Below are positions 2,548 through 59,280 of a stretch of DNA of 64,000 nt, one piece after another; positions within the stretch are counted from its first letter, which is position 1, and the number at the start of each line of letters is the position of its first letter. This DNA comes from Bifidobacterium sp. ESL0732 (lineage in GTDB: Bacteria; Actinomycetota; Actinomycetes; Actinomycetales; Bifidobacteriaceae). The DNA lies in the NCBI RefSeq assembly GCF_029395535.1, contig NZ_CP113920.1, forward strand, positions 2,108,001 through 2,172,000. The letters are read 5' to 3'. Made by a program: the position numbers and the translations under genes. Under the pieces are notes generated by a model that saw only the letters and a program-made list of their open reading frames with translations, did not search any database and was not told the DNA's origin.

Positions 2548-3516
2548 TCAGTAAGCGACCTGAGCCGATTCGTCGGACCCCAAGCGATTGAAACGTTTCC
2601 CTCCATTCGGGCCAGCCCCGACGCCCTGCATCTCCTGAGCCATCTGCATCAGACGGTTGATGCGTTCCTGGGTGGGAGGATGCGTGGAGAAGAGACGGCT
2701 GAAGCCCTCGTCGGAGAAGGGGTTGGCAATCATCATCGCGGCGGCGGACTGGGTGCCGGCGGTCTGCGGCATCGGGTTGGCGGCCGCTCCGGACGTAATC
2801 TTATTGAGGGCCGAGGCAAGCGCTGCTGGGTCGCCGGTGAGTTTGCTGCCGTCTTCATCCGCGTCGTATTCGCGGGTTCGGGAAATCGCCAGCTGAATCA
2901 GCGAAGCACCGATGGGCGCGAGAATCGAGCTAAGTGCCACACCAAGCAGTCCAAAAATCCCGGAATCGCGGTCATCATTGTCTCGTCCGCCACCGAAGAA
3001 CATCAGCATATAGCCCAAATAAGTAATCACCGTCGCCATCGCGCTGGCCACCGCAGAAGTGAGGATGTCGTGATTGTAGACGTGCATCAGCTCATGGCCG
3101 AGCACGCCGCGCAACTCGCGCTCATTGAGGATCTGCAGGATGCCCTGCGTGCAGCAAACGGCGGCGTGACGCTCGTTGCGGCCGGTGGCGAATGCGTTCG
3201 GGCTCATGGTCGCTGCGATATAGATACGCGGCATCGGCTTGCCGGCGCGGGCGGAAAGTTCGCGCACGATACGGTAGAGCTCGGGCGCTTGCTGCTCCGA
3301 AACCTGTTGCGCACCCATCGAAGCGATGGAGATGCGGTCGGAGAACCAATAGGAGATGAAGGTCGACGCAAGCCCGATGAAAATGTAGTAGATAAGCGTG
3401 TCACGGCTGGCACCGGTAAGCCACCAAATAAGCATGATGATGGCCCACATAACTCCGAAAAGGAGCGTGGTTTTGAGGCCGTTCAAGTGGCCGTGTACTT
3501 TGATCTTGCCTTCCAT
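2548..3516 (-). CDS. htpX: Membrane zinc metalloprotease HtpX (M48)
   Basis: Integral-membrane protease that degrades misfolded membrane proteins. Two N-terminal transmembrane helices (about 19-34 and 41-57) precede the zinc motif HELMH at residues 141-145 and a further hydrophobic pair (about 152-174 and 186-210). The third zinc ligand lies in EYDAD near residue 215. The length of 322 residues and this order match the HtpX family. It is monocistronic on the minus strand. The region upstream of its start holds an inverted-repeat array (3689-3798) that could influence its expression; that is inference. Confidence 0.95.
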   Translation of the reverse strand: MEGKIKVHGHLNGLKTTLLFGVMWAIIMLIWWLTGASRDTLIYYIFIGLASTFISYWFSDRISIASMGAQQVSEQQAPELYRIVRELSARAGKPMPRIYIAATMSPNAFATGRNERHAAVCCTQGILQILNERELRGVLGHELMHVYNHDILTSAVASAMATVITYLGYMLMFFGGGRDNDDRDSGIFGLLGVALSSILAPIGASLIQLAISRTREYDADEDGSKLTGDPAALASALNKITSGAAANPMPQTAGTQSAAAMMIANPFSDEGFSRLFSTHPPTQERINRLMQMAQEMQGVGAGPNGGKRFNRLGSDESAQVAY

Positions 3517-3688: not shown

Positions 3689-3798
3689 TGCGATGAAAAT
3701 CAAGAAAACGGCACCGAAATGCTGATTATCATCGCATGTTCAATCGAACATGCGTGCAAACTCACGAAAGCAGCAGTAAAACAGTGAGTATCATCGCA
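3689..3798. repeat. Two tandem 62-bp inverted-repeat units (family C/D)
   Basis: Unit 1 has arms TGCGATGAAAATCA (3689-3702) and TGATTATCATCGCA (3723-3736). Unit 2 has TGCGTGCAAACTCA (3751-3764) and TGAGTATCATCGCA (3785-3798). Both have 14-bp arms and a 20-nt loop and start exactly 62 bp apart. The arms differ between units in a matched way (AATCA/TGATT against ACTCA/TGAGT). A second palindrome with 9-bp arms around AATC (about 3732-3753) bridges the units. The same family recurs at 57727-57836. It lies between the fprA 3' end and the htpX start. Confidence 0.8.
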
Positions 3799-10583: not shown

Positions 10584-10773
10584 GATAGCCTTTGCAAAAC
10601 TCCGGGAGCACTGAAATCGCAACCAACAAGTGTGTGGAATGAAGGAGCCGATACCCAAAAAGTTCATGCCATTGGGCACGTCCCTCTTTGCACAACCCAG
10701 AAACTGCACATAATGTATGGCCACAGCTCATTGCAAGCGACAACACGCAAATTCGTGCATCCAAATAACGATG

Positions 10774-10972
10774 TTGGCGCACCAAGTACCCCCTTATCCC
10801 ATAGATTTGTCCCGAATTCTCTAAATTCAACGATGTTGGCGCACCAAGTACCCCAAATATCGAAGAAATCAGAGCAATTCGCTCAAAAATGGGGGTCTTG
10901 GCGCACCAAGTACCCCAAATATCGAAGAATTAACCCCCAATTGACGGAAAACAGCCATCTTGGCGCACCAAG
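10774..10972. repeat. Four-unit tandem array, exact 62-bp period, core TTGGCGCACCAAG
   Basis: The near-palindrome TTGGCGCACCAAG starts at 10774, 10836, 10898 and 10960, 62 bp apart each time. Units 2 and 3 also share the downstream TACCCCAAATATCGAAGAA; unit 1 keeps only TACCCC and unit 4 diverges after the core. The last core ends about 32 bp before the permease ATG. A sister array with core TTGGCGCGCCAAG lies at 16002. The inter-core sequence is not conserved enough, nor the repeat exact enough, for a CRISPR. Confidence 0.85.
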
Positions 10973-16000: not shown

Positions 16001-16138
16001 CTTGGCGCGCCAAGTCCGCCAAAATTTGAAGAATTCAAGCATAATCATCAATTTTCCGTGTACTTGGCGCGCCAAGATACCCGAATAATGAAGAATGAAG
16101 GTCCAATCACCGATTATTGCCCAACTTGGTGCGCCAAG
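16001..16138. repeat. Three-unit tandem array, exact 62-bp period, core CTTGGCGCGCCAAG
   Basis: Cores start (TTGG) at 16002, 16064 and 16126. The first two are perfect 14-bp palindromes CTTGGCGCGCCAAG; the third is CTTGGTGCGCCAAG. A shared GAAGAAT follows about 28 bp into units 1 and 2, as in the array at 10774. It lies between the orphan terminator and the MFS gene. Confidence 0.85.
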
Positions 16139-55659: not shown

Positions 55660-55767
55660 GCGTCGAAAAGCAGAAAAAGTCGATTGTAAATCTGCTTTTC
55701 AACGCAAGACTGAAACTACGTGCGTCGAAAAGCAGAGAAACAACCCTGTAAATCTGCTTTCCAACGC
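55660..55767. repeat. Two tandem 62-bp inverted-repeat units, core GCGTCGAAAAGCAGA
   Basis: Unit 1 arms are 55660-55674 and 55691-55705; unit 2 arms are 55722-55736 and 55753-55767. Arms of 15 nt pair with one mismatch in unit 1 and two in unit 2, and all parts are offset by exactly 62 bp. It lies between the glnK stop and the tip gene. Confidence 0.8.
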
Positions 55768-55818: not shown

Positions 55819-57452
<1,634 letters not shown>

Positions 57453-57726
57453 TTCGCGTTTCCCCTCTCCGGCCTGTTTTGCGCGACGGGGCTCGACGCG
57501 CCTTGAACCGTATGTGGCTATGAAACACGGGAAACGTAAGGAGAAGTTTGACGCGAGATTACGGCGATGTAAAAAGCAAGCAACTATCGAAACATAATGG
57601 TTACGTTCATTCAACGAGGCTGTCGTCATGCGACAGGAACCGGATTTCGGCCGACAAGGGCAGAAACAGCAGACGACCACTCCCACATGCGGCGGATGAC
57701 CACTGCTGGGCATGCCCATTTGAGCC

Positions 57727-57890
57727 TGCGAGCAAAATCAACAAAATGAGACGATAACGCTGACTTTCATCGCAACCCCATTTGGCGCAGCGTGCAAAAT
57801 CACGAAAATGAAGCGATAATGCTGATTCTCATCGCAGATTCAGCCGTGGCGGCATGCAAAAGACCGCACATTATCATCCGAGATAAAATG
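57727..57890. repeat. Tandem 62-bp inverted-repeat units (family C/D), two clear and one degenerate
   Basis: Unit 1 arms are TGCGAGCAAAATCA (57727-57740) and TGACTTTCATCGCA (57761-57774). Unit 2 arms are AGCGTGCAAAATCA (57789-57802) and TGATTCTCATCGCA (57823-57836). Loops are 20 nt and the offset is exactly 62 bp; a weak third copy begins at about 57851. It matches the array at 3689-3798 in arm sequence, loop size and period. It lies between the ftsY stop and the amtB start. Confidence 0.85.
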
Positions 57891-57924: not shown

Positions 57925-59280
57925 TCAGGCAAGGATGCCGTCGACGAAGCCTTCCGAATCGAAGGGAGCGAGGTCGTCTGGGCCTTCGCCAAGACCGACG
58001 AGTTTGACCGGAACGCCGAGTTCCTGCTGCACGGAGATGACGATGCCGCCCTTGGCCGAACCGTCGAGCTTGGAAAGCACCACACCAGTGATGCCGATAG
58101 CTTCTGCGAAGACCTTGGCCTGTGCCATGCCGTTCTGACCGGTGACGGCGTCGAGCACGAGCAACACCTCATCGACCGGCAGGTTCTTTTCGGTGACGCG
58201 ACGAATCTTGCCGAGCTCGTCCATCAGGTTCGCCTTGTTCTGCAGACGGCCGGCGGTGTCGATAATGAGGACGTCGACGTTCTGTTCCTTGGCCTGCTTG
58301 GAGGCATCGAACGCCACGGACGCGGGATCGCCGCCTTCCTTCTCGCTGCGTACGACCGGCACACCGACCTTCTGCCCCCAGGTCTCGAGCTGGTCGGCGG
58401 CTGCGGCGCGGAATGTATCGGCGGCGGCAAGCATGACGCTCTTGCCTTCTGAGACGAAGAGGCGTGCGAGCTTGCCGGCGGTTGTGGTCTTGCCTGTGCC
58501 GTTGACGCCGACCATGATGATGACGCTTGGCTTCTTGGCGTCCGGCTTGTCCGCGTTGAGCGCGCGGTCGGGCTGGGAATTGACCAAATCGATGAGCTTG
58601 GAGCGCAGAGCTTCGCGCACGGCTTTCGGGTCGGAGGTGCCGGTGATGCGAGCGTCGTTGCGCAGCTCGTCCACAAGCTTTTCACTGGCTTCGCTGCCGA
58701 CGTCGGCCAGCAACAGTGTGTCTTCGACATCTTCCCAATCAGACTCCGAAAGCTGATCCTTCGCGAGAATATTGAAGAGTACGCGCCCAAACGGATTCGA
58801 CGACTTGCTGAGCTTCTCCTTGAGACGAATGGCACGCGAGGCCTTCGGTTCAGGAGTCTCGACATCTGGCTTTGCGGGAGTTTCTTCCTTCGAAGCGCTC
58901 TCGGCTTTCTTTTCATCGGCTTTCTGGGCGCTTTTCGCCGTATCACTGGTTTTTGCTTTGCCTGACTTGTCCGATTTGCTCGACTTAACCGACTTATCTG
59001 ACTTGCTTGGCTCACTGGCATTGGCTGATTTGCCAGCTTCATCGGCACTTTGAGCTTCTGCTTTCCCGGCATTTTTAGCGGCTTTGACCGATTCCTTATC
59101 TTTGCTACCGCTCGCCTCCCCGGCTTCAGCGCTTTTCGCACTTTCGGAAACGTTGGCATTCTGGGCGTTCGCCTCGTTTTTTTTGTGCGAATGCGACACC
59201 AGCACGGCCACAGCAATAAGCACGACGGCGACGACAACCAGCGCCACGACGATAAGCATGGGATTCATAGTAAGACTCAT
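57925..59280 (-). CDS. ftsY: Signal recognition particle receptor FtsY
   Basis: GTPase of 451 residues bringing ribosomes to the membrane. An N-terminal hydrophobic helix (about 8-28) is followed by a Lys/Ser/Ala/Glu-rich linker to about 150. The NG domain has G1 GVNGTGKTT, AAADTFRAAAADQL, G3 DTAGRLQNK and G4 LSKLDGSAKGG. The length and order match actinobacterial FtsY. The ATG at 59280 lacks a clear binding site; ATG at 59268 is an alternative. amtB-glnK follow on the same strand after the repeat array. Confidence 0.95.
   Translation of the reverse strand: MSLTMNPMLIVVALVVVAVVLIAVAVLVSHSHKKNEANAQNANVSESAKSAEAGEASGSKDKESVKAAKNAGKAEAQSADEAGKSANASEPSKSDKSVKSSKSDKSGKAKTSDTAKSAQKADEKKAESASKEETPAKPDVETPEPKASRAIRLKEKLSKSSNPFGRVLFNILAKDQLSESDWEDVEDTLLLADVGSEASEKLVDELRNDARITGTSDPKAVREALRSKLIDLVNSQPDRALNADKPDAKKPSVIIMVGVNGTGKTTTAGKLARLFVSEGKSVMLAAADTFRAAAADQLETWGQKVGVPVVRSEKEGGDPASVAFDASKQAKEQNVDVLIIDTAGRLQNKANLMDELGKIRRVTEKNLPVDEVLLVLDAVTGQNGMAQAKVFAEAIGITGVVLSKLDGSAKGGIVISVQQELGVPVKLVGLGEGPDDLAPFDSEGFVDGILA

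Follow-up and report, generated by a model that had tools for sequence, protein, structure and literature searches.

The window, i.e., the whole stretch of DNA that was analysed (64,000 nucleotides; G000:C1:2108001-2172000), lies in a Bifidobacterium genome of 2.39 Mb, G000. It holds three arrays of one palindromic repeat family (F1) and two of a second (F2). One of the F1 arrays has ftsY as its upstream neighbour and an amtB-type gene as its downstream neighbour. Genes were called with a codon-usage-based caller built for this analysis. The features, in window coordinates, are as follows.

2548-3516, minus strand: htpX (NF002839), downstream neighbour of the 3690 array
3690-3735, plus strand: F1 unit, class A arms GCGATGAAAATCA / TGATTATCATCGC, 20-nt loop
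3736-3751, no strand: 16-bp spacer ATGTTCAATCGAACAT, itself palindromic
3752-3797, plus strand: F1 unit, class A arms GCGTGCAAACTCA / TGAGTATCATCGC, 62 bp after the 3690 unit
10773-10972, no strand: F2 array, four CTTGGYGCRCCAAG-type palindromes at 10773, 10835, 10897 and 10959
16001-16138, no strand: F2 array, three palindromes at 16001, 16063 and 16125, 62-bp steps
55660-55705, plus strand: F1 unit, class B arms GCGTCGAAAAGCAGA / TCTGCTTTTCAACGC
55722-55767, plus strand: F1 unit, class B arms, 62 bp after the 55660 unit
56157-57719, minus strand: amtB-type ammonium transporter ORF (TIGR00836), downstream neighbour of the 57728 array
57728-57773, plus strand: F1 unit, class A, left AATCA and right TGACT, a mismatched pair
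57790-57835, plus strand: F1 unit, class A arms, 62 bp after the 57728 unit
57925-59280, minus strand: ftsY (TIGR00064), upstream neighbour of the 57728 array

The TIGR00836 match starts only at residue 94 of the amtB-type ORF, so the true start may be further in. The closest named AmtB in the collection scanned, from which very near records may be missing, was that of B. commune (82% identical). At 1171-1238 there is a tRNA-like Rfam match of 31.2 bits (cut-off 29) with no ARAGORN call, possibly a decayed tRNA. For comparison we used 112 Bifidobacterium genomes including G000 (G-numbers below); the group of relatives was set by array abundance and AmtB identity, and the stretches of their sequence were selected partly around known matches.

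A sequence-only reading of the window had described four F1 units with 14-nt arms, a 20-nt loop and a 62-bp step at two loci, and its positions proved exact (3690-3735, 3752-3797, 57728-57773 and 57790-57835; each unit is 46 bp, the arms being 14 nt when the outer T/A is counted). Allowing up to three mismatches, the F1 consensus pattern gave five matches in the window (four places, one on both strands) compared with none in 100 shuffles. The further copies that this reading called for were found: pattern and covariance-model searches recovered about 31 F1 arrays in G000 (18 pairs, 7 triples and 6 single units), a list that takes in weak covariance-model matches with E up to 0.4. Among them is the third window array, at 55660-55767, which the reading had overlooked and where the F1 family is also retained in G084 and G087. 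The step is mostly 62 bp, with 60, 61 or 63 bp rare, and the arms fall into classes A (GCGAKSAAAATCA), B (GCGTYRAAAAGCAGA) and C (GCGACGAAAAGCAC). Class A spacers of 16 bp near ATGTTCAATCGAACAT, a conserved palindrome, also occur at G000:C1:658790-658805, 1517084-1517099 and 2321893-2321908, besides window 3736-3751.

The F2 family, with core CTTGGYGCRCCAAG, is unrelated in sequence to F1 and has the same 62-bp step; its two arrays in the window had likewise been overlooked in the sequence-only reading. There are 25 F2 arrays in G000, a set that leaves out four single F2-like matches (up to two mismatches) and keeps the single exact palindrome at 2040974. Exact copies of CTTGGYGCRCCAAG number 64 in the genome compared with none for the control. 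In the first window array, the palindromes at 10773 and 10835 each differ by two mismatches from CTTGGCGCGCCAAG, and Tandem Repeats Finder reported a 62-bp repeat at 10836-10972. In 1.07 Mb of sequence, chosen largely around arrays, we counted 75 palindromes with up to two mismatches, and 43 neighbour distances were exactly 62 bp; this tolerance admits chance matches (5 in one shuffled 464 kb vs 26 real). Exactly three palindromes are present in 20 of 23 arrays. The outer palindromes of some arrays in G084 and G087 (L209, L293, L296 and L297) have one more base at the centre (CTTGGTGGCACCAAG or CTTGGTGCCACCAAG), which makes the spacing of half-sites variable by one.

The 62-bp step is not confined to these two families. 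Scanning periods of 20-130, we obtained five arrays at 62 bp in the window and at most two at every other period. This was also the top period in 464 kb of G000 (15 arrays, followed by 61 bp with 8 and then 5), and in 395 kb from other Bifidobacterium genomes it was not one of the 14 leading periods. Further families with 61-63-bp steps occur in G000 and its relatives, including F3 (TGCAAGAAAnnGGYCRCT, 61-bp step; TGCAAGAAA...), one with CATTTATGGCG, and one with GTGACGC...GCGTCAC plus GTTTGCAA; such families lie at G000:C1:137951, 314690, 459053, 537535, 877362, 1702761, 1785739, 1845674, 1962557, 1965405, 2007905, 2320343 and 2333155. A contiguous 473 kb of G000 has 251 intergenic regions that are 60 bp or longer, and a detector of 59-65-bp repeats, with its threshold at 27 (maximum in 300 mononucleotide shuffles, 26), flagged 25 of them. 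Relatives carry other arm sequences in an identical layout (CAGAGTTAATCACA, TGCTGGTAAACGGAC, GGAAGAAAAGCAACG and TGCGGGAAAAGACGTA). A mirrored 62-bp array with arms GGATGCGAATTGAGACA was present at L240:7284 in G111, a genome with just 8 F1-model matches, so this arrangement may extend further across the genus than the families F1 and F2 do. Two odd cases were seen: a 60-bp repeat flagged at G000:C1:1559129 resembles coding sequence, and a 61-bp array of G084 (L154:1204-1307) has two steps of 52 bp, a variant shorter by nine bases.

The spacing is tied to the pitch of the helix. Across 21 F2 triples, 18 blocks of 95-100% A/T lie about 10.33 bp apart from position -19 to 158 (178 bp), symmetric about the middle palindrome; 6 of the 18 fall in the palindromes used for array selection and 12 outside. 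Of 13 periods tried, A/T content peaked at 10.33 bp in F2 and at 10.33-10.5 bp in F1. With blocks recurring every 10.33 bp, 62 bp amounts to six helical turns. At F2 columns 22-25 and 33, A and T are interchangeable, while at columns 32 and 34 the base itself is conserved too. The sequence-only reading had proposed a copying or spacing rule; the spacing is real, and copying is not needed for the shared step because unrelated families share about six helical turns. That unrelated families have one helical step suggests that the geometry itself is selected.

Selection of the F2 palindromes by their sequence partly accounts for how uniform they are within G000. In orthologous F2 arrays, 11 of 420 half-site positions had changed (2.6%) compared with 269 of 921 between them (29%) when one misaligned row was dropped; with that row (own 2011268 vs G082) kept, the 16 comparisons gave 21/450 for half-sites and 328/989 for inner positions. 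Changes affected 36 of 168 palindrome-centre positions, about 17% of the flanks and 37 of 381 A/T-block positions, 22 of these 37 keeping A or T. For this set, the relative needed at least one palindrome, and some loci of G000 entered it twice, each time against a different relative. The pattern in F1 is similar: across six orthologous comparisons, picked as loci with the same family in both genomes, 7 of 216 arm-core positions had changed (3.2%) compared with 52 of 191 in loops (27%), 20 of 143 variable arm positions, 29 of 96 in spacers and 336 of 1532 in the rest of the region. Judged from these alignments, the arms are degenerate half-sites constrained between species, and the DNA between them is mostly free except in composition. 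The symmetric site that had been proposed as one of two options, the other being a hairpin, is thus upheld.

We consider that the arrays are probably multi-site platforms for one or more putative sequence-specific, oligomerising DNA-binding proteins that bend or wrap DNA. Each arm would be a half-site, and half-sites would be mirrored about every 31 bp (three helical turns), so that one unit would span six turns and all sites would face the same side of the helix. A protein binding these half-sites would wrap the array DNA, and its role would be chromosome organisation or supercoil handling, not control of individual genes. The families may be read by different, similarly built proteins, or by one machine reading geometry. 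This reading draws on the step shared by unrelated families, the A/T phasing, the constrained half-sites, the lack of covariation within families, the position of arrays between genes with the F1 bias to 3' ends, the F2 loci common to several carriers, the F2 gap at the terminus and the absence of an apparent regulon. It counts against such platforms that the two candidates searched for, Y1 transposase and Lrp/AsnC, had no match in G000, and that arrays have been gained and lost between relatives, with arm families differing at one locus, F2 carriers included.

A platform could also be one for a known enzyme. Transcription accumulates positive supercoils downstream of genes, and phased A/T blocks could let DNA gyrase wrap BIME-like arrays there, although we think this improbable. 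The 54 arrays examined lie in 53 intergenic regions and none falls within a called gene. Of the F1 arrays, 14 are convergent, 16 codirectional and 1 divergent. The convergent share (14/31) exceeds that of background regions of at least 60 bp (93/585, p=2e-4) and, at a 150 bp cut-off, 11/28 exceeds 62/446 (p=0.0013); the bias is significant at cut-offs of 60, 100 and 150 bp and weaker at 200 bp (p=0.033). These backgrounds were size-matched, and a background of longer regions gives p=6e-5. In 14 of 16 codirectional cases F1 is nearer the upstream gene's 3' end (median 43 bp vs 190 bp to the next start). Such placement is what gyrase sites would favour, as is phasing at 10.33-10.5 bp in both families over a length comparable to the published motif, which, in the available text of PMC6379681, is about 130 bp in E. 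coli, symmetric and periodic in GC at 10.75 bp; BIME-2 elements are enriched for gyrase cleavage sites in the same text. However, F2 has neither a convergent nor a 3'-end bias, and it is phased through its centre, whereas the two periodic regions of the E. coli motif, as described there, flank a distinct central part. In addition, that motif is a degenerate phased composition, while here half-sites of 13-15 bp are conserved.

A second explanation, to which we give about the same low weight, is that the arrays are REP/MITE-like, non-autonomous mobile repeats, spreading one family at a time, inserting where intergenic gaps tolerate them and then decaying. There are many families, with dozens of copies of the two studied, and the neighbouring genes share no functional theme. 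The F1 model matched 20 of 112 genus genomes at E<=0.01: twelve (G000, G082-G085, G087-G093) have at least 42 both-strand matches each, with at most 55 candidates scored, and the other eight have 1 to 12. F2 is abundant in five of 112, namely G000 (64), G092 (60), G084 (48), G087 (48) and G082 (38); G083 has two matches, five genomes have one each and the other 101 have none. Because a reversed control pattern likewise matches once in each of five genomes, the single F2 matches are at chance level.

Both presence and family vary at single loci, as mobile repeats would predict. Between ftsY and amtB, three other, clearly different families occur in G083/G084/G087, in G085 and in G082, single related copies in G090/G091, and none in G086, G089, G092 and G009. 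Among F2 carriers, thyA has four F2 palindromes in G092 and a different family in G082, and purA has three in G084 and in G087 and none in G092. In genomes without abundant F2, inspection by eye found another family at thyA (G083, G091) and purA (G088, G093), with none evident in the others. The family also differs at own 141218 (G087), 604829 (G087) and 2060155 (G083), and between G087 and G093 at own 587004. Array gain and loss, together with family switches, also fit mobile elements settling in tolerant gaps.

Other results argue against mobile repeats. The sampled DNA of G082, G084, G087 and G092 contains 19 distinct multi-palindrome F2 arrays, and 17 of them map to an F2 locus in G000. 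The G000 sequence used for this mapping covered 45% of the genome and had mostly been picked around its own arrays, a choice that tilts the result towards shared loci. The two unmapped arrays (one in G082, one in G092) have flanks without a match, and the matching own DNA may be outside the sample. As for single F2 palindromes, two of G084 are unmapped, three (one G084, two G087) lie away from own F2 arrays and the others are at own F2 loci. A RAYT/Y1 transposase (PF01797) that might mobilise the arrays had no match in G000 or G082-G093, while 7 of 112 genus genomes and 5 of 14 control genomes did match. Two array patterns had no match in viral contigs, in scans that may omit close records, which also speaks against a phage origin. 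In orthologous arrays of both families, half-sites have changed far less than the DNA that separates them, the opposite of the uniform neutral decay of a MITE. The arrays may have been gained through a mobile origin; the present constraint is strong.

F2 alone might be a nucleoid-occlusion or macrodomain signal, its palindromes spread chromosome-wide and kept from the terminus, as Noc and SlmA sites are; we rate this somewhat lower still. The GC skew of sampled G000 stretches switches near 0-50 kb and near 1.2 Mb. Near the contig start, genes resembling dnaN, recF and possibly dnaA were recognised only by eye, and dnaA was not confirmed by a motif check. Among the 64 exact F2 palindromes of G000, none lies from 0.876 to 1.609 Mb, a gap centred on the skew switch, and none of the 25 arrays lies 300 kb or less from the terminus, where 6.3 would be expected (P=7e-4), with 1 of 25 within 350 kb (7.3 expected). 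Intergenic space there is ordinary, and F1 has no significant terminus gap (4/32 within 250 kb, 6.7 expected). Among the matches listed, which are 35 of 48 sites by position in each genome, G084 has 0 of 21 arrays near the terminus (5.2 expected, P=0.0025; none listed at 0.938-1.683 Mb) and G087 has 1 of 19 (5.1 expected, P=0.022; one site in 0.395-1.103 Mb), the largest listed gap of G087 falling in the part of the chromosome beyond its listed sites. Both termini were placed by GC skew, which is noisy in G087. Noc has about 70 palindromic sites that are absent from the terminus (PMC4331003), but phased triplets do not feature in its site description in the available text of that paper. Further points against a Noc-like role are that F2 is abundant in so few genomes of the genus and that the arrays are shared by descent, so the terminus tests are not independent.

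The weakest alternative, very improbable in our view, is a structured RNA with selected stems (mRNA 3'-end stabilisers or terminators), which the position of F1 near 3' ends and the pairing of pooled arms favour and which the behaviour of arms within families contradicts. Pooling 44 F1 units, arms pair at 86.1% compared with 75.9% in shuffles; this covariation arises because the arm classes differ from each other. Within families there was no compensation: with right arms shuffled, class A (n=12) scored 133 against a mean of 138.3 (p=0.94), and with shuffled arms class B (n=23) scored 305 vs 300.9 (p=0.16) and F3 (n=13) 185 vs 183.8 (p=0.43); 9 of the 44 units fall outside classes A and B. Arm covariation, which the sequence-only reading offered as a test of its hairpin, thus fails at the level of the class. 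The matched arm changes that it reported (AATCA/TGATT, ACTCA/TGAGT) hold in three of the four units, and the 57728 unit pairs AATCA with TGACT. At the pair of positions that the reading had compared (AATCA/ACTCA; columns 10/37), class A has two left and four right changes in five units, with both arms changed in one; that sole unit is the one seen earlier (3752-3797). A hybrid unit, its left arm of class B and its right arm of class A, occurs at own 1967522 (E=0.19, a weak match to the model) and at the orthologous locus of G084. The lack of joint arm change within families and this unlike-arm unit in two species argue against a selected hairpin. Moreover, the F1 loop A/T blocks are anti-pairing (columns 17/30: AA 24, TT 10, TA 5, AT 1, 4 other; n=44), and in the window Rfam found only tRNAs above the gathering score and nothing at the arrays. 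F2 mirror positions outside the palindromes show Watson-Crick pairing about as expected. The pooled F1 arms are complementary, and hairpins could still form. More generally, covariation pooled across arm classes can mimic a hairpin.

To return to platforms for a DNA-wrapping protein, Lrp/AsnC octamers were an attractive candidate, as four dimers at 31 bp fitted F1 well. The PF01037 domain had no match in G000; it matches 73 genomes, yet of the 12 array-rich genomes just G088 and G093. As far as profile matches can tell, Lrp/AsnC and RAYT are excluded as general answers. A regulon was also considered: the 24 F2-facing genes tested (of 25 distinct, one spanning two stretches) are mostly unrelated housekeeping genes with no common theme, so no regulon is apparent, and no theme was found among the F1-facing genes tested (6 of 18). 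In the contiguous 473 kb, 10 loci had an array in G000 and a relative, 9 in G000 only, 4 in the relative only and 46 in neither (p=1.5e-4); this locus preference is weak evidence, because much of it is same-family inheritance and its family switches come mainly from the ftsY-amtB locus. Among the matches listed from openly licensed PMC papers we found no description of Bifidobacterium intergenic palindromic repeats; the F2 12-mer occurs in 18 papers of that literature, and by title none of the 10 listed was about such sites; and word searches of the available text of PMC3733652 and PMC4449606 found no description of such arrays.

A bolder version of the platform reading is a geometry-coded chromosome-organising system of one Bifidobacterium group. 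Positioned, nucleosome-like wraps would sit at about a tenth of intergenic regions, the mirrored six-turn layout would be kept while one family's half-site sequence replaces another's at a given locus, and F2 would mark everything but the terminus. We regard this as a doubtful proposition. Confirmation that the geometry itself is selected would open, through sequence, a way to a DNA-wrapping machine in Bifidobacterium, and would allow a test of whether wraps or division signals are placed at fixed loci in a bacterium.

Several known systems resemble the arrays in part. The E. coli gyrase motif and strong gyrase sites are, in the source text available, likewise symmetric, longer than 100 bp and A/T-G/C phased with the helix; the arrays differ in their long conserved half-sites and in phasing through the centre, and gyrase binding here is hypothetical. 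Noc sites in B. subtilis and SlmA sites in E. coli are, in the accounts available, dozens of palindromes around the chromosome kept from the terminus, like F2, whereas F2 occurs mostly as triplets with six-turn spacing and is abundant in few species. The BIME/REP elements of Enterobacteria and Pseudomonas, as presented in the available text of PMC3733652, are also extragenic, with palindromic sites of alternating orientation in short arrays, and the 3'-end and convergent preference of REPs is shared by F1. In contrast, F2 has no convergent bias, the arrays have neither a RAYT match nor a constant GTAG/CGTC tag (by eye, GTAG is not constant in F1 and CGTC appears in some F1 left arms, column 5 being C in 15 of 44; neither is constant in 43 F2 units), their arms do not covary within families, and unrelated families share a 61-63-bp step.

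Some CRISPR arrays have a period of about 61-62 bp and palindromic repeats, in which they resemble F2. However, CRISPR repeats are identical, have unrelated spacers and lie beside cas genes, while F2 repeats are degenerate and dispersed as arrays of 2-4 sites at about 25 places, and the DNA between F2 sites shares a phased composition and diverges by substitution at orthologous loci.
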